A stretch of 41,397 bases of DNA. Source: Desulfuromonas sp. GTDB lineage: Bacteria; Desulfobacterota; Desulfuromonadia; Desulfuromonadales; Desulfuromonadaceae. Shown one piece after another: positions 5,681-23,831 of the stretch. The notes beneath the pieces were generated by a model that worked only from the letters and a program-made list of their open reading frames with translations, was not told the DNA's origin and made no database searches. Where the stretch lies: the NCBI GenBank assembly GCA_021162745.1, contig JAGGYC010000146.1, forward strand, positions 1 to 41,397, given 5' to 3'. Made by a program: the position numbers and the translations under genes. Numbering within the stretch: the first letter of the stretch is position 1; each line of letters opens with the position of its first letter.

Positions 5681-6925
5681 ATGGCTAACTTGAACGACTC
5701 ACAACCCCGACCGGGGCGCGGAAAACAACTGGCACTGCGTTTGTTGATCGCAGCCATCATTCTCGCTATTGGTGCGGTCATTGCCGTTTATTTAACCAAA
5801 ACGGCGCCGAAAGCCAATAAGCGGGCACCGAAAAAGACCAGTGCGTTAGTGCAGGTGATCACGGTGCAGCCGAGTCAGCAACAGGTTCGTGTCGCAGCCA
5901 GTGGCCAAGTGATGGCAGCGCGGCAGATGACCTTGCAGGCCCAAGTGGCCGGGCAGGTGGTGTCGATTCATCCCGACTTTATTGAAGGTAGCCTGATTCC
6001 TGCCGGTGGCGAGGTCTTGCTCATCGATCCAGCTGATTATCAGTTGATGGTGGCCGATAAGCAGGCCCGTCTGGCCGAGGTTCAGGCAGCCCTTGATCTT
6101 GAGTTAGGTCAACAACAGGTGGCCCAGCGTGAATGGGAGTTGTTTCAGTCCCAGGACGAACCGATGGAAAACTCGCCCAGTCTGGCGCTGGTGCTGCGTG
6201 AACCCTATTTGAAAAAAGCCCAAGCGGCGGTTAAAGCGGCCGAGGTGGCGGTAGCTAAAGCCCAGTTGGATCTCAAGCGGACCATGGTGCCGATCCCATT
6301 TGATGCCCTGGTGATCAGCAAGAGCGTTGATCTGGGCAGTCAACTCAGCGCTCAAAGTACCATTGCCGAACTGGTGGCCGTTGATACCTTCTGGTTGCAG
6401 TTGTCGTTGCCGATGGAAAAACTGGCCTGGATTGATATCCCCGCAGTCAGCAGTGAGCACGGCGCAATGGTGGAGTTGCAGTCCGCCGATGGTCAGCTGC
6501 GCCAGGGTACCGTTATACGGCTGTTGGCCGATCTCGAACAGCAGGGGCGGATGGCACGACTACTGGTCGCGGTTGACGATCCACTTGACCTTGAACAGCC
6601 CCTCGGCAAGCGTCATCCGCTGTTGCTGGGGGAATATGTGCAAACGCAGATTGTCGGCAAACCGCTGAACGAGGTGGTGGTGCTGCCGCGCAGCGTGGTG
6701 CATAACGGCAATCAGGTGTGGCTGGCTGTTGATGGTCATCTGCAGATTCGTGAGGTGGAGATCGTGTGGCGCGATGCCGGGCACCTGTTTATCAGCGCCG
6801 GGTTGCAGGCGGGCGAGCAGGTGATTGTTTCGCAACTGGCGACACCTGTTGCCGGTTTGCCGCTGCGCATTGATGTTCCAAAGGCGTTGGATCAACGCGA
6901 TCACGCCATGACGGAGTCGCACTGA
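5681..6925 (+). CDS. RND periplasmic adaptor (membrane-fusion protein, HlyD family)
   Basis: A 414-residue adaptor that joins the inner-membrane pump to the outer-membrane channel. A single N-terminal membrane helix at about residues 19-40 anchors it, and there is no lipobox. A biotinyl-lipoyl-like domain (QAQVAGQVVSIHPDF...EGSLIPAGGEVLLIDPADY) encloses a coiled-coil hairpin (about residues 125-205), followed by the beta-barrel and membrane-proximal domains. Its stop overlaps the pump ATG (TGATG at 6923-6927), so the two are translationally coupled. Start ATG 5681 follows AAAGGATC at good spacing. Confidence 0.92.
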   Translation: MANLNDSQPRPGRGKQLALRLLIAAIILAIGAVIAVYLTKTAPKANKRAPKKTSALVQVITVQPSQQQVRVAASGQVMAARQMTLQAQVAGQVVSIHPDFIEGSLIPAGGEVLLIDPADYQLMVADKQARLAEVQAALDLELGQQQVAQREWELFQSQDEPMENSPSLALVLREPYLKKAQAAVKAAEVAVAKAQLDLKRTMVPIPFDALVISKSVDLGSQLSAQSTIAELVAVDTFWLQLSLPMEKLAWIDIPAVSSEHGAMVELQSADGQLRQGTVIRLLADLEQQGRMARLLVAVDDPLDLEQPLGKRHPLLLGEYVQTQIVGKPLNEVVVLPRSVVHNGNQVWLAVDGHLQIREVEIVWRDAGHLFISAGLQAGEQVIVSQLATPVAGLPLRIDVPKALDQRDHAMTESH

Positions 6926-9900
6926 TGAGCACTGTGTTACGCGACCAGAATGAGCGAGGTCCTATCGCTTGGATGGCTGGAAATTCAGTGGCAGCCAACC
7001 TGCTGATGTTGTTTTTGCTCATCGGTGGACTGGTGATGGGCACCCGTATCAAGCAGGAGGTGTTCCCCGAATTTACTGTCGATGTCGTCACCGTCTCGGT
7101 AGCCTATCCCGGTGCCAGCCCCGAAGAGGTGGAGCAGGGGATTGTTCTCGCCATCGAGGAGGCGGTTCAGGGACTGGATGGGGTGGATGAAGTGGTCTCC
7201 AGTGCCCGCGAAGGGGTGGCGGTGGTCACCATCGATCTGCTACTCGGCGCCGATCTGCAGAAGCTGGCCAACGATATCGAGAATGAGATCGACCGCATCA
7301 CCACCTTCCCGGAAGAGTCCGAAGAACCACAGGTTGAGGTGGTCAGCCGCAAACGTCAAGTGGTGTCACTGGTGCTGTACGGTGATCAGACCGAACATAC
7401 TCTGCGCAACCTGGCTGAACAGTTGCGCGACAGCTTGTTGCAGGATCCTGATATCACCCAGGTGGAACTGGCCGGGGTGCGTAATCTGGAGATCTCCATC
7501 GATGTTGCGCAACATCAGTTGCGCCGCTACGGTCTGACCCTGGCCGAGGTGGCGCAGCAGGTTAATGAAGCGTCCCTTGACCTGCCAGGCGGTGGTATTA
7601 AGACCGAGTCCGGTGAAGTGTTGGTGCGGATGAAAGAGCGCCGCGATACCGGCGAGCAGTTTGCTGCCATCCCGGTGATCAGCAACAACGACGGTAGCGT
7701 TATCCGCCTCGATGAAATTGCCACCGTCAGTGATGGTTTTGAAGATAGTGATCGTTCAGCGATCTATAATGGCAAGCGTGCTGTGATGATCGAAGTCTAT
7801 CGCATTGGCGATCAGACACCGATCGAGGTTGCCGACGCCGTATTTGCCCAGATGGCAACATGGCAGACTAAGTTGCCACCCGGCATTGAGATGGCGGTGG
7901 TCAATGACAGCTCCGATGTCTTTAAACAACGCGCTGACCTGTTATTGCGCAACGCCTTTCTCGGTTTGGCGCTGGTGCTGGTGCTGCTGAGTATCTTCCT
8001 CGAAGCGCGGCTGGCATTCTGGGTCACCATGGGTATCCCCGTTTCGTTCCTCGGCGCATTTTTACTGCTGCCGCTGGCCGGGGTGAGTATCAACATGGTC
8101 TCCATGTTTGCTTTTATTATCGCCCTCGGTATCGTCGTCGATGACGCTATCGTCGTCGGTGAAAATATCTATAAATTTCGCCAGCAAGGGATGGCGCCCC
8201 ATCGCGCTGCCATCGCCGGGGTGCGTGAAGTGGCGGTGCCGGTCACCTTTAGTGTCCTGACCAATATTGTCGCTTTCATGCCGCTTTATTTTGTCCCCGG
8301 CACCATGGGTAAGATCATGCTGACCATTCCGGTGGTGGTGGTGAGTGTGTTCATCATCTCCCTGATCGAATCCTTGTATGTACTACCGGCGCACCTCGGT
8401 CATCTTGGCGATAAACGTCGCAACCGACCCATGGCGTGGTTGCATGAACGGCAGCAGCGCTTCAGTGCCTGGTTTACGCATCTGGTGGCTGATATCTATG
8501 GTCCGTTTCTCGACAAGGTGCTGCATCGTCGTTATATCACTATCGCATTAGCGGTGACGGTGCTGATGGTGACCACGGCCTATGTGAAAAGTGGCCGCAT
8601 GGGGATGACCATGTTTCCCAAGGTGGAATCTGATTTTGCTCAGGTACAATTGACTCTGCCCTACGGATCACCGGTGGCCAGCACTGAGGCCATCTGCCGG
8701 CAACTGTTGGCTGCGGCTGATGTTGTGGCCCAGCAGCATGGTGGTGATACCTTGGTGGTCGGCAGCTTTACTGAGATTGGCATCAGCGGCAGCCACACTG
8801 CCCGCATTCGCGTATTTCTAACCGACGCCGAGCTGCGGCCGCTCCCCACCGATCAGTTTGTTAAATTATGGCGTCAACAGACCGGTGAGCCAGTCGGGCT
8901 GGAATCGATAAAATTTGCCGCCGATGCCGGTGGTCCCGGTTCCGGTGATGCCCTGACCATCGAACTCAGTCACCCCGATCTCGATACCCTGGAGTTGGCC
9001 AGTGCCGATCTGGCCAAAGCCCTTAGTTATTATCCGCGTGTTACCGATATAGACGATGGCTTTGCCCCCGGTAAGCAGCAGCTCGATTTTACCGTTCGTG
9101 AATTGGGTCGCAGTTTGGGTCTTAATGCCCGCCAAGTGGCATTGCAGGTGCGCAATGCATACGATGGTGCCGAGGTCTTGCGCCAGCAGCGGGGTCGCAA
9201 CGAGATCAAGGTGGTGGTGCGCTTGCCCGAAGCCGAGCGGATCACCGAGTACAACCTGGAAGAGATGGTGCTGCGCAGCCCCAACGGCGTCGAAGTGCCG
9301 CTGTTTGAAGCGGTGGATGTTGATCGCGGTCAGGCCTATATCAGTATCGACCGTCGTCGGGGGCGGCGGGTGGTTACCGTTACCGCCGATGTCAATCCGC
9401 TTCCGCAAGCCGGTCAGGTGATCAGCGCTCTGGAACAGGATACGCTGCCCGAGCTGCTGGAGCGCTATTCTGGTCTGAGTTATTCTTTCGAGGGTAAGCA
9501 AGCGGATCTTCAAGAGAGTATGACGGGGCTGGCTATGGGGCTGGGTATGGCGTTGCTGTTGATCTACTTTTTGTTAGCCATTCCGTTTCGTAGTTACATT
9601 CAACCGACTATTATCATGATAAGTATTCCGTTCGGTATCGTTGGTGCGGTGGCTGGGCATATTCTGATGGGCTACAGCCTGAGTATCATGAGTCTGTTTG
9701 GTGTACTGGCCCTGTCGGGGGTGGTGGTGAATGATTCATTGGTGCTGATCGATTTTGCCAACCGGCGTCATAAGGCGGGGGATTCTGCGCATGATGCGGT
9801 GCTGGCGGCGGGGGTGCAGCGTTTTCGGCCCATTTTGTTGACCACCTTGACCACCTTCTGTGGCTTGGGGCCGATGATTTTTGAGACCTCGCGCCAGGCG

Positions 9901-10527: not shown

Positions 10528-10532
10528 TTTAT

Positions 10533-10567
10533 GTAGGTCGGGTTAGCGGAGCGTAACCCGACAACAA
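10533..10567 (+). repeat. REP element, copy 2 (left of RAYT)
   Basis: The same hairpin as 5365-5398, including the flanking GTAG and ACAACAA. It ends 8 bp before the RAYT start codon and forms an inverted pair with 11117-11147. Confidence 0.88.
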
Positions 10568-10575
10568 TACTACCT

Positions 10576-11112
10576 ATGGAATATCGAAGATCACATACAC
10601 CGGGTGGCTCATTCTTCTTCACCCTGGTCACAGAAAACCGTCGCCCAATATTTGCTTCAAAGGAAGCGGTAGCTGTTTTGCGTGAGGCCATGCGCCACGT
10701 CAAAAACTCACGTCCTTTTGACATCAATGCGGCGGTGATTTTTCCTGATCATATCCATTGTATATGGACATTGCCACCCGATGATGCGGACTTTTCTACG
10801 CGTTGGCGTTTGATCAAAACATGGTTTACCAAGCACTGCGATCCTTCGTTACGCGACAATCCGAATCGTGTTCGAACGGCCAAGGGTGGACAATCGATAT
10901 GGCAGCAACGCTATTGGGAACATCAGTTACGTGATGAGCAGGATTTTATTCGCCATGTGGAGTATATTCATTTCAATCCGGTGAAACACGGACTGGTTGC
11001 ATCGGTCAACGAATGGCCCTATTCAAGTTTTCATCGTTATGTTGATGAGGGTAATTACCCCAGTAATTGGGGCGCAGATGTTGTTGAATATTTGGATGTT
11101 GGTCGTGAATGA
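10576..11112 (+). CDS. REP-associated tyrosine transposase (RAYT, Y1_Tnp family)
   Basis: A 178-residue member of the IS200/IS605-like Y1 transposase family. The metal-binding HUH motif appears as DHIHCIW at about residue 58. The catalytic Tyr lies in the C-terminal RHVEYIHFNPVKHGLV motif, diagnostic of RAYTs. RAYTs are domesticated single-strand nucleases that recognise and spread REP hairpins. That role fits the inverted REPs on both sides (10533-10567 and 11117-11147) and the further copy at 5365. The frame is complete with all motifs, so the protein is probably active. Confidence 0.93.
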   Translation: MEYRRSHTPGGSFFFTLVTENRRPIFASKEAVAVLREAMRHVKNSRPFDINAAVIFPDHIHCIWTLPPDDADFSTRWRLIKTWFTKHCDPSLRDNPNRVRTAKGGQSIWQQRYWEHQLRDEQDFIRHVEYIHFNPVKHGLVASVNEWPYSSFHRYVDEGNYPSNWGADVVEYLDVGRE

Positions 11113-11116
11113 GGGC

Positions 11117-11147
11117 TGTCGGGTTACGCTCCGCTAACCCGACCTAC
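11117..11147 (-). repeat. REP element, copy 3 (right of RAYT, inverted)
   Basis: The reverse complement of the 10533 copy, starting 4 bp after the RAYT stop. Together they form the REP-RAYT-inverted REP arrangement called a REPtron. Confidence 0.88.
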
Positions 11148-11199
11148 GTACTACTTCGCAAAATAGATCACGAGCAGCTCAGAGATAGAGGAGTCACTC

Positions 11200-11660: not shown

Positions 11661-12977
11661 TCAAAAAAAGTAGCGGATTCGCAACTCAAGCTTGTCTTCG
11701 TTAAGCTTCTCACCATGCTCGGTGAACGTTTCTCCGGCAATATGTGAAAAACGCAGGCGCAGTTCCCAGTTGCTGAACCCGCTATAGACGGCTTCTGGGC
11801 TCAGGGAATAACTGTCATCGTCAAGGTTGATGATTGCGTTCAGGGCGGGGGTGAAATAGAGCAGGTCGAACGGTTCCTTGTGGATGATTCTGGCATATAG
11901 ATAGTTTCGCCCAAGCTGGGGCTTTGCATAGCCACTGCGACTGATGACTGTGGCTTTACGGAAGAGGCTGTCATCACCGCTGCTGCTGTAGAGGGTGTTC
12001 GCCTCATTGATCAGCTGGTAAAAGCGCTCCATCTCAGCTTCGGAGTATCCCGCATCGTTATGGTAGAATTCGAGGATGGTGGTGAGGTTGTTTTCAGTCA
12101 AATAACGCAAGCCGAACAGATAGCTGGTGACGGATCTGTCATGCTTTTCCAACAGGCCATAGCTGTTGAGAACCGTTACTCTCTGCTGTGGGACATGGGC
12201 AACCTCAGCGTGAATCTCAACATGGGGCGCAAGATTTTTGGAAAAATCGATGCCGTATCGGGTTGAACGGCTGTTGCCGGTGAAGACGACCATGTCGATG
12301 TCGGTATTTCGGTAGAGAAGATAGAGTTTAGCCGCCAGATTAATATGATCCTGTTCACCAAAGTCATCGTTGATCTCCTTCCATACCGGTAACACCACCG
12401 CAGTTAAGGCCAAGGTCTGAAGTGGCCCGGGGAAACTCCTGATCAGATCGACTCCGGCACCGATATAGCCTTCGAGGGCGTCTTCCGGGTTGTTGAGATC
12501 TTTAGGCCGGTTGATAAAGCCCACCGGATTCCAGGCATAGCCTGTACCCCATTTGAACGTTTTTTTCCCCAGTTCAAAGGTGATCGATGGCGACGGTTTG
12601 ATACTGGCATAGGCGGAAAAAATATCCAGCTGATCCTCGGTACCAACCTGATCCCTGCGAGTAGAGGCCTGCAGCAGCCCGTGGAAATCCACGATCCCCT
12701 TGTGATAGCTCCCCTCAAGTTGCAGGGTTGCCGTCAACCGATCCAGCTCGGCACGCGGATTATCATAGAACCCCAGTCGCCAAAAAGCGCCGGCGGTGTT
12801 AAGCCAGTGATGATCCCACTTCAGCTCAGTATAACCACCCCATTCAAAGCTCTTTTTTTCAAATTCTTCCAGATCGAAGCTGTAGTCTTCGGCCAGACTC
12901 ACGGCAGGGATGGCTAGTCCTCCCCATAACAGGGTGGCTAAACAGGTGAAAGCGATTATTTTTCGCATAAAAACCAT
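11661..12977 (-). CDS. Outer-membrane beta-barrel protein of the export operon
   Basis: A protein of about 438 residues with a signal peptide (MVFMRKIIAFTCLATLLWGG, cleavage near LAEDY). Long runs of alternating amphipathic strands end in RIRYFF, the C-terminal aromatic signature of barrels inserted by BamA. The KKTFKWGTGYAWNPVGF stretch resembles proteins found with LolA-like partners (DUF1302/alginate-export type). I chose ATG 12977, which follows AAAGAGA; the upstream extension to 13025 runs into a structured inverted repeat. It is the last gene of the five-gene minus-strand operon, about 160 bp after the LolA-like gene. The exported substrate is unknown. Confidence 0.78.
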   Translation of the reverse strand: MVFMRKIIAFTCLATLLWGGLAIPAVSLAEDYSFDLEEFEKKSFEWGGYTELKWDHHWLNTAGAFWRLGFYDNPRAELDRLTATLQLEGSYHKGIVDFHGLLQASTRRDQVGTEDQLDIFSAYASIKPSPSITFELGKKTFKWGTGYAWNPVGFINRPKDLNNPEDALEGYIGAGVDLIRSFPGPLQTLALTAVVLPVWKEINDDFGEQDHINLAAKLYLLYRNTDIDMVVFTGNSRSTRYGIDFSKNLAPHVEIHAEVAHVPQQRVTVLNSYGLLEKHDRSVTSYLFGLRYLTENNLTTILEFYHNDAGYSEAEMERFYQLINEANTLYSSSGDDSLFRKATVISRSGYAKPQLGRNYLYARIIHKEPFDLLYFTPALNAIINLDDDSYSLSPEAVYSGFSNWELRLRFSHIAGETFTEHGEKLNEDKLELRIRYFF

Positions 12978-13006
12978 AGACGTCTCTTTATTCAGCGCAC
13001 ATGTAG

Positions 13007-13113
13007 ATAAACTGGCGACGCCCATGGAAAGGGTATCTGTCGCCCGGATGGCGACAGTTAAGTACCCATGGATGGGCTTGACACGTCCCTTGGAATGGGC
13101 GTTGCCAGTTTAT
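13007..13113. repeat. Structured intercistronic inverted repeat
   Basis: Nineteen-base outer arms at 13007-13025 and 13095-13113 (ATAAACTGGCGACGCCCAT against its complement with one G-T mismatch) enclose nested stems: GGGTA with TACCC, and CTGTCGCC (13037-13044) with GGCGACAG (13050-13057). It lies between the LolA-like and barrel genes. It may stabilise or process the mRNA, or be a small MITE-like insertion. Confidence 0.65.
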
Positions 13114-13138
13114 CGGGTTGAATACATCATCCGCTGAT

Positions 13139-13900
13139 TTAACGCAACTCATCAACCCGTGACAGATAGTTGAGGGAAAAGACCTCATCCGCCAGTTCTT
13201 TTCGATTAATCTTGGCGTAGATCATGATCGATTTGTAGCCTTTGTAGAGCGGGCTGTCGGTTTCCAGTACCGACGGACGCACGACACCGTTACCAAAATC
13301 TTTCGTTTGTTTGTAATAGAGGGTTTTGATCAGCATGCCGCTGGCGGCATAGCAGGCGATGGTAGTGGGAATCAGGGATTGCTTGTCAACCCACATTTGC
13401 AGGGTGTCATAGGCGACGGCATTCGATTTCGCTTTGAGATCGAGCAGGTACAGCTCCTCCTCTTCCGTTACCTGTGCCACATCATATTCGGCACCATAAT
13501 CAAGGCGCAGGATATCGGAATTATTGAATACCCCGCCGACCACCGATTGCAAACTGGTGATACGGATTGGTCTGCCGACATTAGGGATATAGAGCCACAT
13601 ATTGTCACCCTGGCGCAGGGTGGAACGACCCTTTTCACTGGCCGGAGAGAGGAACAGGGCCACCATTTTGTCTTGCCCTTTTTTTACCGAATAGAGGACG
13701 AACTCTTTTTGGCTGCCGCTGGGCTCAATGTTGATCAGTTTGCGGTACATCTCGTATGATTCCGGGTTGAGGTTTTTGTCCACCTGCTTGAGGATGGTAC
13801 CGCCATCAAGCGCATAAGCGAGGGGCGCAGCACAGAAAAACAGCGGCAACAGTGCGAGCAGAAAGTTATTTTTCCTCAATAAGAGCTTGAACAATCTCAT
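13139..13900 (-). CDS. LolA-like outer-membrane lipoprotein-sorting family protein
   Basis: A protein of about 253 residues with a cleavable signal (hydrophobic NNFLLALLPLFFCAAPLAYA). A LolA/LppX-like half-barrel domain follows, with conserved LKQVDKNLNP, DNMWLYIPNVGRPIRI and VYTLNYLS-like (VFSLNYLSRV) segments. Relatives annotated as outer membrane lipoprotein-sorting proteins sit beside FtsX-type ABC transporters and are thought to carry hydrophobic cargo through the periplasm. ATG 13900 follows AGGAG and overlaps the end of the NifX-like gene by 35 bp, indicating one transcript. Confidence 0.82.
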   Translation of the reverse strand: MRLFKLLLRKNNFLLALLPLFFCAAPLAYALDGGTILKQVDKNLNPESYEMYRKLINIEPSGSQKEFVLYSVKKGQDKMVALFLSPASEKGRSTLRQGDNMWLYIPNVGRPIRITSLQSVVGGVFNNSDILRLDYGAEYDVAQVTEEEELYLLDLKAKSNAVAYDTLQMWVDKQSLIPTTIACYAASGMLIKTLYYKQTKDFGNGVVRPSVLETDSPLYKGYKSIMIYAKINRKELADEVFSLNYLSRVDELR

Positions 13901-14267
13901 GGGTATCTCCTGTTCGCATGACATATTTTATGCTGTATGAGTTCAGCGCACGTTCCATCTTGGTGCCGAATTCTCCGGCGACAACGAACGTAACCCCCTT
14001 GGCGTAGAGAAAAGATGCCACCTTGGGGCCTGCCCCGCCGGGCGCATCGGCAAAGGGGTTTTCCTCCGCCTCCAAGTAATTTCCACTACCATCAAAATAA
14101 AGGAAGTAGGCCGCCCTTGCCGCCTTGTCGCTGATCACGGCTCCATCCCCCTGGCTGCTGGCTGCAACGGCGATACAGGCAACATGCTCTGTAGCGTTTG
14201 CCCAACAGACCATCATTATCCCGAAAAAAATCAATAAAAAGTAGAGCGGTATTTTTTTATAAAACAT
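13866..14267 (-). CDS. Exported NifX/NifB C-terminal-like protein
   Basis: A 133-residue protein with an N-terminal signal (YFLLIFFGIMMVCWANA, cleavage near ANA-T). The mature domain has the NifX/NafY/NifB-C fold signature: an ACIAVAASS strand, the PGGAGPKVASFLYAKGVTFVVAG core and a GTKMERALNSYSIKYV helix. Cytosolic relatives bind iron-molybdenum cofactor precursors or other clusters. A secreted version inside an ABC export operon is unusual, so the cofactor role should not be assumed. ATG 14267 follows AGAGGA; the gap from the permease gene is 34 bp. Confidence 0.72.
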   Translation of the reverse strand: MFYKKIPLYFLLIFFGIMMVCWANATEHVACIAVAASSQGDGAVISDKAARAAYFLYFDGSGNYLEAEENPFADAPGGAGPKVASFLYAKGVTFVVAGEFGTKMERALNSYSIKYVMRTGDTHEIVQALIEEK

Positions 14268-14301
14268 ACTGTAGTCCTCTCGGCTTGTTTTTGCGACGCC
14301 A

Positions 14302-15546
14302 TCAAACATGCTTCAGGGCGGTAATCGGATCCATCCTTGATGCTTTCCAGGCCGGTTGCAAACTGGCGATCACGGCAATGGCGATAACCATGGCGACCAC
14401 CAGCACCACGTCTGCAACCCCGATGGTCGGCGAGAGCAGCAGACCGGTCTGGCGTCCGAAGTCGAAACGGATCTGCGTTACATTCATAATCGCGATACTG
14501 ACCAAACTGATCACCGTACCGATCGTGGTTCCCAGAATACCCATCAGCAAGCCTTCAACAATAAAAAGGGCGAGGATTTTATTTGGCAGCGTCCCGATGG
14601 CGGAAATGGTTCCGATCTCGTTGATCCGTTCATAAACAGCCATCACCATCACGTTCATGATACTGACCAGCACGATGGCCACCAGCATGATCTTGATGAA
14701 AAAAGTCATCAGATCAATCATCTTGGCAATGTTGAAGAAGGGTGAAATCTTTTCCCAAGTATGCATCTCAAAAACGGCACCTCCCTGCTGGGTTTTTATC
14801 GATCCAAGCTTTTTCTGCAGACGGGCAAAGACGGCGGGCAGCTGATCGATATCTTTCAGGCGAATGGCCACCTCACTGACCTCGGCAGTGCCGATTCTGA
14901 GTAGGGATTTGGCATCATCGATATGAATCATGCCATCGCGCCCACCCGGTCCGGAGATCCCTTCGAGAATACCACGCACCACAAAGGTCTGGCCGTTGAC
15001 TGAGCCATCCTTGTTGTTGGCTACCAGGACAATTGCATCACCGACCTTGACCTTCATCCCCTTGGCGAGCAGTTCCGGGATCAGGATCTCCCCCTGTTTA
15101 ATCAGCCCCTCCTTGTCACCAGCCAACAGCCGGTCGCTCAGCAGGGGCGCAGTCTTGATTTCATCCGTTGGGGTGACGGCATTTAAGCGAATATTGGTGG
15201 TCTCGATGAAATTGCTGAACATTGCCCCCAGCCTGATCCGCATGGAATAAGCTTCCACGCCATCTTCCTCAGCTAAAACCTGCACAATCTTATCCAGTTG
15301 TTTGCCGGTCAGGTTGCGGTTCAGGGGCAAGCTGTCAATGGAGGCCAGATAGCCTTTTTTGTGAATCTGGATATGACCCAGCATCGAATCGGTGATCTGG
15401 CCAACCATCAAGGCCTTGAAAGAGCCCGATACCGCGATAAACAGCAGCACGGCGACCACCCCCAGGGTGATCAACATGGAGGTCAGCAGGGTGCGTCGTT
15501 TGTAGCGAAACAGGTTGCGGGCAGCCAGTTTGAAAATATTAGACAT
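14302..15546 (-). CDS. FtsX/MacB-type ABC transporter permease
   Basis: A 414-residue permease with the LolC/LolE/MacB layout: one N-terminal helix (TLLTSMLITLGVVAVLLFIAVSG), a large periplasmic domain of about 230 residues, then three C-terminal helices in the FtsX domain. It includes the coupling segment AVYERINEIGTISAIGTLPNKI and ends in PAWKASRMDPITALKHV, typical of the family. It would use mechanotransmission to hand a lipid or lipoprotein to a periplasmic carrier. The start ATG 15546 lies behind GGGAGG and overlaps the ATPase gene by 8 bp. Confidence 0.9.
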   Translation of the reverse strand: MSNIFKLAARNLFRYKRRTLLTSMLITLGVVAVLLFIAVSGSFKALMVGQITDSMLGHIQIHKKGYLASIDSLPLNRNLTGKQLDKIVQVLAEEDGVEAYSMRIRLGAMFSNFIETTNIRLNAVTPTDEIKTAPLLSDRLLAGDKEGLIKQGEILIPELLAKGMKVKVGDAIVLVANNKDGSVNGQTFVVRGILEGISGPGGRDGMIHIDDAKSLLRIGTAEVSEVAIRLKDIDQLPAVFARLQKKLGSIKTQQGGAVFEMHTWEKISPFFNIAKMIDLMTFFIKIMLVAIVLVSIMNVMVMAVYERINEIGTISAIGTLPNKILALFIVEGLLMGILGTTIGTVISLVSIAIMNVTQIRFDFGRQTGLLLSPTIGVADVVLVVAMVIAIAVIASLQPAWKASRMDPITALKHV

Positions 15547-16255
15547 CATCACCTCCCACCATCCCTCCCGTCATCGTCTCCTGCCTGTGCAAGATTCCAT
15601 CTTCAAGGGTAAAGGTGATCTCGACACTATCGACAATGCGCTGATCGTGGGTAGAAAAGATAAACGTGGTGTTGAACTCATCGCGCATCTGCTTCATGAG
15701 ATCGATGATTCGGCTGGCCGTTTCACGGTCCAGATTGGCCGTCGGTTCGTCAGCCAGAACCAGCTTGGCATTGGTGACCAGGGCTCTGGCCACGGCAACG
15801 CGTTGCTTCTGGCCACCGGAGATCTGGCTGGGGTACTTATCTCCCTGATCCGCCATGCCGACCGCATCCAGCAGCTCCATGACCCGTTTTTTACGTTGTT
15901 GCCTGGGCCACTCTTGCACCATCTGTAATGGATATTCGACATTTTCAAACACCGTCAATACCGGAATCAGGTTGAAGTCCTGAAAGATAAAGCCGATATG
16001 TTCACCGCGAAAACGAGCCGCATCTGCACGGCTCAAGCTGGTGATCTCCTGCCCGGCAACCTGCAGGTAGCCGGACGTTGGCGGATCAAGGCAACCGATC
16101 ATGTTCAGCAGTGTTGTCTTGCCGCTTCCCGAAGGACCGATAAAGGAAACGAAGGAGGCTGGCTCAATGGAAAAATCAACCCCGCGAATCGCTTCAACCC
16201 GGATATCACCGCTGACATAGGTTTTAACCAATCGTTTTGCCACAACAACGGACAT
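15539..16255 (-). CDS. LolD/MacB-type ABC transporter ATP-binding protein
   Basis: A 238-residue ATPase with Walker A GPSGSGKT, Q-loop FQDFNL, signature ISGGQKQR, Walker B LVLADEP and switch His in STHD. The insertion pattern and length fit the LolD/FtsE/MacB group, which works with FtsX-type permeases. It is the first gene of the minus-strand operon ATPase, permease, NifX-like, LolA-like, barrel. The 144-bp divergent gap to nfeD (16256-16399) must hold its promoter; I saw no distinctive operator there. Confidence 0.92.
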   Translation of the reverse strand: MSVVVAKRLVKTYVSGDIRVEAIRGVDFSIEPASFVSFIGPSGSGKTTLLNMIGCLDPPTSGYLQVAGQEITSLSRADAARFRGEHIGFIFQDFNLIPVLTVFENVEYPLQMVQEWPRQQRKKRVMELLDAVGMADQGDKYPSQISGGQKQRVAVARALVTNAKLVLADEPTANLDRETASRIIDLMKQMRDEFNTTFIFSTHDQRIVDSVEITFTLEDGILHRQETMTGGMVGGDDV

Positions 16256-21436: not shown

Positions 21437-21964
21437 ATGATGAAAAAATCAATGATCCCCCTGATGCTATTGGTTGTATTGATCGCCGGAGTCATAAATG
21501 TAAGCGCAACGGAAAATCGTTTTAACGCTGAGATGGATGCGGTGCCATTTGGTTCCATGGCAAGGATGCATCATGGCATGGTTGGTCCCGGCCAACGGTT
21601 TGAACTGCTGACCATCGCCCTGGATTTAAACGAAAGCCAACAGGTGCAGATCAGGCAGATGGTTGAAAATCAACGCCAGAAGATGCAGCAATGTCGTGAA
21701 GGGATGCGTCAAGATCAGATGCGGCTATGGCTGATGATGAGCGAGCAACCGTTCAACGAGACACAGTTTCGTGCCTTGGCGGAAAAAGTCGCGGATCAAC
21801 GGATCGATATGATGGTCAATCGGGTTAAAAGCAAGCAGCAGATCTTTTCGATCCTGACCCCGGCACAGCAGGAGAAAGCTCAGAAGATCTGGGATCTCAT
21901 GGGTCAGAAACACCGTGGCAAGGGCAAAGGGAAGGGGCAAAAGGCCATGGCAGGACGCAGCTAA
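21437..21964 (+). CDS. CpxP/Spy-like periplasmic stress protein (LTxxQ family)
   Basis: A 175-residue protein with a signal peptide (MIPLMLLVVLIAGVINVSA) and an all-helical mature region. It carries the two LTxxQ-type motifs of the CpxP/Spy/zinc-resistance family: a divergent first copy (LDLNESQQVQIRQ) and LTPAQQEKAQKI near the C-terminus. The tail is very basic (KHRGKGKGKGQK). Family members are periplasmic chaperones or feedback inhibitors of CpxA. A strong AAGGAG ribosome binding site precedes ATGATG. A perfect CpxR-type box upstream links it to the CpxRA-like pair 18 kb away. Confidence 0.82.
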   Translation: MMKKSMIPLMLLVVLIAGVINVSATENRFNAEMDAVPFGSMARMHHGMVGPGQRFELLTIALDLNESQQVQIRQMVENQRQKMQQCREGMRQDQMRLWLMMSEQPFNETQFRALAEKVADQRIDMMVNRVKSKQQIFSILTPAQQEKAQKIWDLMGQKHRGKGKGKGQKAMAGRS

Positions 21965-21995
21965 TCTTTTTGTCGTGATAGCGGTCGATTCATGG

Positions 21996-22037
21996 CAGGT
22001 ACAGGACTGAGCCTCTTAGTTCTGTACCTGTTTTTTT
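21996..22037 (+). terminator. Rho-independent terminator of the CpxP-like gene
   Basis: CAGGTACAGGACTGA pairs with TTAGTTCTGTACCTG (two mismatches) and is followed by seven T residues. Confidence 0.9.
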
Positions 22038-22095
22038 GTTTTTCTACCGGTTGATAGGGCAGGGACTAATATCAATTAGCGCTTGACTTGTTTGG

Positions 22096-22119
22096 CTATT
22101 TGGCTAAGCTGCCAAATAG
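22096..22119. promoter_or_regulatory. ArsR-type operator (perfect inverted repeat)
   Basis: Nine-base arms CTATTTGGC and GCCAAATAG flank a six-base spacer, ending 13 bp before the ArsR start codon. A TTGACT hexamer at 22083 places the repeat across the probable -10 region, the usual position for autorepression. Confidence 0.75.
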
Positions 22120-22132
22120 ATTGGAGGGAGAG

Positions 22133-22468
22133 ATGAACAATCACCACAGGCAACAGTTGGAGGCCAGGGCGCGGGTCTTGAAAGCCATGGCTCATCCGAC
22201 GCGGTTGTTTATTATCGAAGAGTTGGAAAAAGAGGAGCGCAGCGTCAATGATCTGACCGCCATGGTCGGCGCTGATGTGTCAACGGTGTCCAAGCATCTG
22301 GCGCAGCTCAAACAGGCCGGTCTGGTGCGCGATGACAAGCGCGGTAATCAGGTGTTTTACCGTTTGGCGGTGCCGTGCATCCTCAATTTCTTTGGCTGTG
22401 TCGAAGCGGTTTTGACTGAACAGCTTCAGCAGCAGTCGGCCGCTGCCACGTTACGGGTACGACCATAA
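22133..22468 (+). CDS. ArsR-family transcriptional repressor
   Basis: A 111-residue winged-helix repressor. HPTRLFIIEELEKEERSVNDLTAMV and the recognition helix DVSTVSKHLAQLKQAGLV are classic ArsR, followed by the wing DDKRGNQVFYRL. The metal-box cysteines (ELCVCDL) of arsenic sensors are absent. Cysteines occur only near the C-terminus (VPCILNFFGCVE), so the ligand may be another metal or a redox signal. ATG 22133 directly follows GGAGGGAG. It heads a three-gene operon with a permease and a redox thioredoxin and probably represses it from the operator at 22096. Confidence 0.9.
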   Translation: MNNHHRQQLEARARVLKAMAHPTRLFIIEELEKEERSVNDLTAMVGADVSTVSKHLAQLKQAGLVRDDKRGNQVFYRLAVPCILNFFGCVEAVLTEQLQQQSAAATLRVRP

Positions 22469-22517
22469 AAATTTATCCAGAAATTTAGCCGTCTGGCCAA
22501 AAAGTGAGTGAGGAACC

Positions 22518-23831
22518 ATGCAGTGGAATCGAGAATGGAAGCCGTTGGCGACCATCATCAGTGTGTTTGTACTCTGTTATTACCTGCCGGTGGAACGGTT
22601 ACAGGGCGATCTGTGGCCCGGCAATCCGCTGTGGGAGGCGTTATATCTGGTGCGTTGGTATGCTCAGGAGCATGTATTGCTGTGCCTGGTGCCGGCATTT
22701 CTGATTGCTGGAGCCGTCGGCGTGTTTGTCAGCCAAGCCGCGGTGATGAAGTATCTTGGTCCAACGGCCAATAAATTTCTCGCTTATGGTGTGGCCTCGG
22801 TGTCGGGTACCGTTCTCGCCGTCTGTTCCTGTACGATCCTGCCGCTATTTGCCGGCATCTATCGCATGGGGGCCGGTCTGGGCCCGGCCAGTGCCTTTCT
22901 CTACTCTGGCCCGGCGATCAATATCCTCGCCATCGTGTTAACGGCGTCGGTACTCGGCCCGGAGATGGGGATCGCCCGTGCCATCGGTGCCGTGGTGTTC
23001 AGCGTGCTGATCGGCTTGCTGATGCACCTGTTCTTTCGTAAGGAAGAGTTGCAAAAAGTCGCTGCCGCCGCAGCAATGCCCGAACCCGAGGTGTCCCGAC
23101 CGCTGTGGCAGGTGGGGATATACTTTGCCAGCATGGTCGGTGTGCTGGTGTTTGCAAACTGGGGGAAACCCCAGCAGATGGATGGATTGTGGCATGTGAT
23201 CTGGGCCAATAAATGGCTGATCACCAGCCTGTTTGCCGTGTTGCTTGGCCAGTGTCTGGTGTGGTGGTTTCGGGTGCGCGCCAGTGCGATTTTCGGTGTC
23301 GCTATTCCGGTGGCTTTTTTGGCGATCCTTTATTCAGAGCAGCCGTTGATCGCGTTTGTGGTTGGCGTGTTTGGACTCTGTTTGATTCTCAATAGCCGTA
23401 AAGACAACGAGGAGCTTGAGGAGTGGTTCGCTACCTCGTGGGATTTTGCCAAAAAAATTCTACCACTGTTGTTTTACGGCGTGTTGATTGCCGGAGCGCT
23501 GCTCGGTCGTCCCGGTCATGAAGGTTTGATCCCGTCGGTGTGGATCGCGAATCTGGTCGGCGGCAATGGCTTCGGTGCGAACCTGATGGCGTCGGTACTG
23601 GGAGCCTTCATGTACTTTGCCACCTTGACCGAGGTGCCTATTCTGCAAGGATTGATCGGCGCCGGGATGGGCAAGGGGCCGGCGTTGGCGTTGCTGCTGG
23701 CCGGGCCGGCACTGTCGCTGCCCAATATGCTGGTGATTCGCAGTGTGATGGGCACTAAAAAAACCGTGGTGTTTGTCTGCCTGGTGATAGTGATGGCGAC
23801 CATCAGTGGTTTGATCTATGGCACGTTCTGA
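22518..23831 (+). CDS. DUF318 / ArsP-type permease
   Basis: A 437-residue membrane protein with about ten helices in two repeats. The first repeat carries the family motif AVCSCTILPLFAGIYRMGAGLGPASAFLYSGPAINI, and the second SVLGAFMYFATLTEVPI with GPALSLPNM. The family includes ArsP, which exports trivalent organoarsenicals, and permeases implicated in metal export. The cysteine pair of CSC is present. Co-transcription with ArsR and a CxxC thioredoxin supports a metal or metalloid export role; the ion is not determinable from sequence. Confidence 0.88.
   Translation: MQWNREWKPLATIISVFVLCYYLPVERLQGDLWPGNPLWEALYLVRWYAQEHVLLCLVPAFLIAGAVGVFVSQAAVMKYLGPTANKFLAYGVASVSGTVLAVCSCTILPLFAGIYRMGAGLGPASAFLYSGPAINILAIVLTASVLGPEMGIARAIGAVVFSVLIGLLMHLFFRKEELQKVAAAAAMPEPEVSRPLWQVGIYFASMVGVLVFANWGKPQQMDGLWHVIWANKWLITSLFAVLLGQCLVWWFRVRASAIFGVAIPVAFLAILYSEQPLIAFVVGVFGLCLILNSRKDNEELEEWFATSWDFAKKILPLLFYGVLIAGALLGRPGHEGLIPSVWIANLVGGNGFGANLMASVLGAFMYFATLTEVPILQGLIGAGMGKGPALALLLAGPALSLPNMLVIRSVMGTKKTVVFVCLVIVMATISGLIYGTF

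Follow-up and report, generated by a model that had tools for sequence, protein, structure and literature searches.

In the Lol pathway, known for example from E. coli, an ATP-binding cassette (ABC) transporter, LolCDE or LolDF, works together with the carrier LolA. The LolF type, which is frequent in other phyla, uses a single permease. The Hook of LolC or LolF recruits LolA, a mode of recruitment held to be universal (PMC10865981). A related layout was reported for the Borrelia BBJ23-29 cluster, which comprises a homodimeric MacB/LolE-like ABC transporter, a LolA-like carrier and an outer-membrane barrel, and for which outer-membrane delivery of a non-polar ligand has been proposed (PMC13078400). 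Here we analyse a five-gene operon of a Desulfuromonas sp. (GenBank assembly GCA_021162745.1) that resembles both systems and encodes, in addition, an exported protein with the NifX fold. It occupies positions 11661–16255 of the window, the stretch of 41,397 nucleotides from contig JAGGYC010000146.1 that was analysed. The genome is 2.9 Mb in size and 97% complete, the habitat is sulphidic, and the nearest named relatives are metagenome-assembled genomes of Desulfuromonadales.

The operon shares with the Lol pathway a LolD-like ATPase, an FtsX-type permease and a carrier of the LolA superfamily, and its single permease corresponds to the LolDF layout. It differs by the presence of a dedicated barrel and the NifX-fold protein, by a short polar hairpin at the presumed Hook position and by ATPase and permease scores below the Lol cut-offs. 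The ABC transporter, LolA-like carrier and barrel are found in one cluster in Borrelia as well, but the Borrelia cluster encodes an Omp85-family barrel and TPR proteins, whereas the present operon has a porin/AlgE-like, non-Omp85 barrel and the NifX-fold protein. The original prediction took the system to be undescribed. The three-part layout is already in print for Borrelia, but the exported NifX branch of PF02579 appears to be undescribed: literature searches for the gene set or for exported NifX returned nothing relevant except BBJ23-29. A paper on pyrite in Allochromatium that names 'dinitrogenase cofactor' genes was set aside, as the genes are different. We consider it fairly probable that the operon is a paralogous Lol-type export line, combining ABC extraction, a LolA-like shuttle, delivery to a barrel and a NifX-fold accessory.

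All five genes lie on the minus strand, close together or overlapping, and are of the types first assigned to them. The predicted path from the inner membrane through the periplasm to the outer membrane is supported. The LolD-type ABC ATPase (238 aa, 15539–16255; TIGR02211, PF00005) is the first core gene in relatives and overlaps by 14 nt with the FtsX/MacB_PCD LolCE-like permease (416 aa, 14302–15552; PF12704, PF02687, TIGR02212). A gap of approximately 34 nt separates the permease from the NifX-fold gene (133 aa, 13866–14267; PF02579), an optional member with homologues in relatives. This gene overlaps by 35 nt with that of the LolA-like periplasmic carrier (253 aa, 13139–13900; PF17131), which is followed after about 160 nt by the outer-membrane β-barrel (11661–12977), identified by AlphaFold2 and Foldseek and ending in Phe. 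Three start sites were revised. The NifX-fold protein most likely begins at the ATG at 14267, preceded by the Shine-Dalgarno sequence AGAGGA, although its open reading frame (ORF) opens at 14309. The carrier starts at the ATG at 13900 (Shine-Dalgarno AGGAG) and the barrel at about 12977/12968.

The best NCBIfam match of the ATPase is TIGR02211 with 223 bits, under the equivalog cut-off of 307.75. The permease reaches 118 bits with the lolCE model TIGR02212, where the cut-off is 362. It has four predicted transmembrane helices and is probably a single subunit forming a homodimer. Other contigs of the same genome contain a lolCE gene above the curated cut-off (384.5 bits) and two canonical PF03548 LolA genes. 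Since the genome holds this separate canonical set, the ATPase, permease and LolA-like carrier constitute an additional, paralogous line. A second Lol-like cluster is also present in this genome (G000:C53:2475-5599; loci L211 and L213), with a divergent LolA-like match followed by two lolCE-like permeases.

The solved structures related to the permease are LolE, LolF, LolC, MacB and YtrF. The presence of MacB in this group and of a MacB_PCD domain in the permease would fit a MacB-type efflux pump for drugs or toxic compounds, with the LolA-like protein as the periplasmic adaptor and the barrel as the exit duct. We regard such a pump as improbable. The lolCE score of the permease is far above its MacB score of 39 bits, the operon contains neither a MacA adaptor nor TolC, and the ATPase and permease are separate rather than fused. 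LolA-superfamily proteins, moreover, are lipid carriers and not adaptors.

The carrier matches LolA_like PF17131 with an E-value of 8e-43 (146.6 bits), and its relatives in the PDB are 3buu (E 7e-29), 4z48, 3bk5 and 9tp6. It belongs to the LolA superfamily, yet not to the canonical LolA family PF03548. Its predicted signal peptide would be cleaved between PLAYA and LDG, that of the barrel between AVSLA and EDY. The barrel has no family match in Pfam or NCBIfam. Relaxing the Pfam threshold to E-values of up to 10 gave scattered single-member matches alone (Wzi, 0.028), and searching the PDB sequences with an alignment of the barrel yielded nothing beyond chance matches. The AlphaFold2 model is a multi-stranded barrel of moderate confidence (pLDDT 71), for which Foldseek returns porins, AlgE and OprB. 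With no Pfam match and porin-like fold matches, the barrel does not qualify as Omp85.

Two further observations concern this part of the operon. In L142 (3801–5903), the permease and LolA share one open reading frame, which reflects either a fusion or a sequencing error. At five loci (L092, L094, L097, L098 and L111), a SLAC1/TehA-family anion channel of approximately 400 aa lies between LolA and the barrel. The channel was considered as a hint to the cargo and dropped, five loci being too few. No conserved neighbour gene naming the cargo was found in the flanks of 80 loci, which contain PAS/sensor proteins and other generic genes.

These loci are the best 80 LolA matches obtained when named genomes were scanned with the LolA alignment, so that the frequencies given below are not population estimates; in the draft genomes, absence of a gene may also reflect a missed gene. 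Nearly all belong to Desulfobacterota, with a few labelled Krumholzibacteriota, Electryoneota or Pseudomonadota. The four-gene core is kept in order across Desulfobacterota, both in the order-level and in the GTDB samples. As many genomes contain the set in the same order, it is not a chance assembly. Within the order of the window's own organism, eight genomes have ATPase, permease, NifX, LolA and barrel in this order, as far as the contigs extend. Five others (G009, G074, G051, G084 and G129) have the operon without NifX, at comparable LolA identity (60–84%), and in G073 (L077) the contig ends inside LolA, leaving the NifX status indeterminate.

NifX is found within the operon at 33 of the 80 loci. 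In 29 it lies between the permease and LolA, including one degenerate copy (L106), and in four it lies upstream of the ATPase (L145, L148, L153 and L159). A further 33 loci contain the complete operon and upstream sequence without NifX, and the remaining 14 are cut short and could not be judged. The absence of the NifX gene from homologous operons, which the original prediction gave as grounds for refutation, thus applies to about half of them. Where present, NifX is nevertheless tied to the operon. In an even sample of 394 genomes of the phylum, the LolA subfamily occurs in 52 and high-scoring exported NifX (E at or below 2.6e-35, clearly separated) in 16. The LolA subfamily is also present in 14 of these 16, and in 13 the two are in the same operon (Fisher p = 9e-12). 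Distances among the NifX proteins correlate with those of LolA and permease combined (Mantel rho 0.56, with none of 2000 permutations as high), as expected if NifX travels with the operon.

On the tree of LolA and permease, the presence and absence of NifX needs 10 changes, nine of them forced by well-supported branches, compared with 21 for shuffled labels. The tree by itself cannot discriminate between gain and loss. Remnants of the gene, together with its wide spread, favour repeated loss: the C-terminal end of NifX, EQTGAAHDVVKSLIKE, persists in the spacer of L094, and the N-terminus of NifX has been joined to LolA by an in-frame deletion in L106.

It is conceivable, albeit unlikely, that NifX is a passenger gene with an unrelated periplasmic role that merely uses the operon promoter. 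Such a role would agree with the complete operons that lack NifX and with exported NifX proteins standing alone at L197, L199 and L203 (L198 could not be judged, as its contig starts there). It agrees poorly with an association that extends over many families and two operon positions, with the correlated divergence, and with a tandem NifX duplicate inside a single operon (L200). Absence from half of the complete operons, combined with the co-occurrence and the distance correlation, indicates that NifX, as judged from its distribution, is a genuine but dispensable accessory and not a core subunit. The two exported paralogues of L200 (genome G141) occupy 7228–8157; by eye, the vicinity contains a Spy/LTXXQ-like protein, an ArsR-like regulator and a ChrA-like transporter. 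The lone exported NifX of L199 (genome G492, 6127–8353) directly precedes what appears, again by eye, to be a CLC-type chloride channel.

The NifX-fold protein matches PF02579 with an E-value of 1.1e-10 and 42.1 bits, above the gathering score of 26.3. Its AlphaFold2 model (pLDDT 82.5) is closest to TM1816 and to the orange protein (ORP), with a target-normalised TM-score (TMt) of 0.81 for both, and Foldseek also retrieves NifX in 9ian (E 9e-4). The fold and domain are common to NifX, NafY, NifB-C, the orange protein and TM1816-type proteins. NifX/NafY chaperones are typically cytosolic. In contrast, all 42 members of the present family have a signal-peptide-like N-terminus with no lipobox, as first predicted for the window protein, based on a hydropathy and cleavage heuristic rather than SignalP. 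In the window protein, the putative type I signal peptide MFYKKIPLYFLLIFFGIMMVCWANA (14193–14267, minus strand), read from the sequence and scored by the same heuristic, would be cleaved before TE.

As a comparison group for the 42 exported proteins we took the 56 PF02579-like ORFs that these searches also returned; a few of the 56 are intermediates, and one is the window protein. The His-Phe-Gly site is replaced by x-Ala-(Ala/Gly) in the exported proteins: none has His48 or Phe49, and 38 have Ala49. Among the relatives, 47 have Phe49 and 49 have Arg or His at position 48. At residue 104, 40 of 42 exported proteins have Met, whereas 49 of 56 relatives have Ala. The mature domain of the 42 contains no conserved Cys or His column, while the pocket positions S46, R51, N70, G101, K103 and G120 of the PF02579 family are retained. 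By these residues, the exported NifX proteins are a distinct subfamily, set apart from their PF02579 relatives by the signal peptide, the missing His-Phe-Gly, Met104 and the lack of linkage to nif or orp genes here. At L201, L202 and L204, NifX-like proteins without a signal peptide have SPR(P/S)GRA(R/K)FY in place of His-Phe-Gly and are encoded beside short permease-like genes, forming an intermediate subfamily. The C-terminal Di-Nase domain of MrpORP from sulphate reducers belongs to the same domain family (PMC6345978), but the corresponding NCBIfam match to the window protein is weak (17 bits), and the window protein lacks both the Cys/His motifs and the P-loop domain of MrpORP.

The signature bears on the metal- or cofactor-binding role originally predicted for this subunit. 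In NafY, H121 of the His-Phe-Gly motif common to NifB and NifX is the key FeMo-co ligand (PMC8496260). The ligand in NifX is H35, and NifY and NafX are without the histidine (PMC13128457). As all 42 have lost His-Phe-Gly and conserve neither Cys nor His in the mature domain, a cofactor role of the NifX/NafY type is unsupported. We rejected the argument that a missing His by itself excludes metal binding, because the orange protein has Arg at the aligned position and still binds an S2MoS2CuS2MoS2 cluster non-covalently (PMC6345978). The periplasmic ligand of the exported protein could be a metal, a metal sulphide or a (thio)metalate, through which metal status would be coupled to envelope export. 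The similarity to ORP and TM1816, the near-invariant Met104 and hosts that are mostly anaerobes of sulphidic Desulfobacterota speak for such binding. The lost motif, the Phe49 to Ala replacement, the absence of conserved Cys or His and the histidine identity of the known ligands speak against it, and we think it doubtful. We give a similarly small chance to a repurposed branch that gates or loads a dedicated lipid or lipoprotein exporter in the periplasm of sulphidic anaerobes, with a metal sulphide or another anionic ligand bound in what was once the cofactor pocket. The exported NifX protein probably serves as a helper in the periplasm rather than as a metal chaperone.

In the paralogous export line that we favour, the ATPase and permease would pull an amphipathic cargo, a lipid or lipoprotein as suggested by the families, off the inner membrane at its outer face. 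The soluble LolA-like carrier would take the cargo from them and pass it to the dedicated barrel, which would replace LolB, as operon conservation suggests. In about half of the lineages, the exported NifX-fold protein would work with this line as a soluble periplasmic assistant. Most likely, it carries no metal cluster, and a small non-cluster ligand or a protein contact allows it to assist or modulate the carrier or permease.

Three points weigh against this account. The region of the permease equivalent to the Hook is a short polar hairpin with the conserved motif (A/T)xNxDGS(V/I)N, constant in length in 70 of 70 relatives and, as positioned by HMMER alignments, 4–5 residues shorter than in LolC and LolF. 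On this alignment, carrier hand-over would not be identical to that of Lol. The modelled barrel resembles known folds only generically, with a TM-score of about 0.5. The lone NifX proteins of L197, L199 and L203 indicate that the partner of NifX need not be this transporter.

The LolA–barrel spacer is occupied by a dispersed palindromic element (13006–13114), similar to a miniature inverted-repeat transposable element, which lies within the operon but outside the machinery. Its inverted arms are at 13006–13033 and 13087–13114, and its fold z-score is −7.95. The element has 31 matches in this genome (77–100% identity) and partial copies at the corresponding spacer region in two relatives (L031 and L033). 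It may influence expression of the barrel gene. A scan for promoter-like sites on the minus strand found none, which carries little weight, as the sigma-70 consensus was the sole pattern scanned. Elsewhere in the window, a Y1_Tnp transposase gene (10576–11112) is flanked by two inverted 34-nt palindromes (97% complementary), and the layout of this region (10530–11150) is that of a REP-associated tyrosine transposase. The region 21437–23831 encodes an LTXXQ/Metal_resist protein and an ArsP_1-type permease.

Our analysis suggests that, across Desulfobacterota, duplication of Lol-type export gave rise to a dedicated line equipped with an outer-membrane barrel of its own. A protein family known chiefly for cytosolic handling of metal clusters would have an exported branch linked to Lol-like export. 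Close relatives with and without NifX in the operon offer a natural comparison for the function of NifX, and the cultured Malonomonas rubra, which carries the NifX-less line, is a usable test strain for the core.

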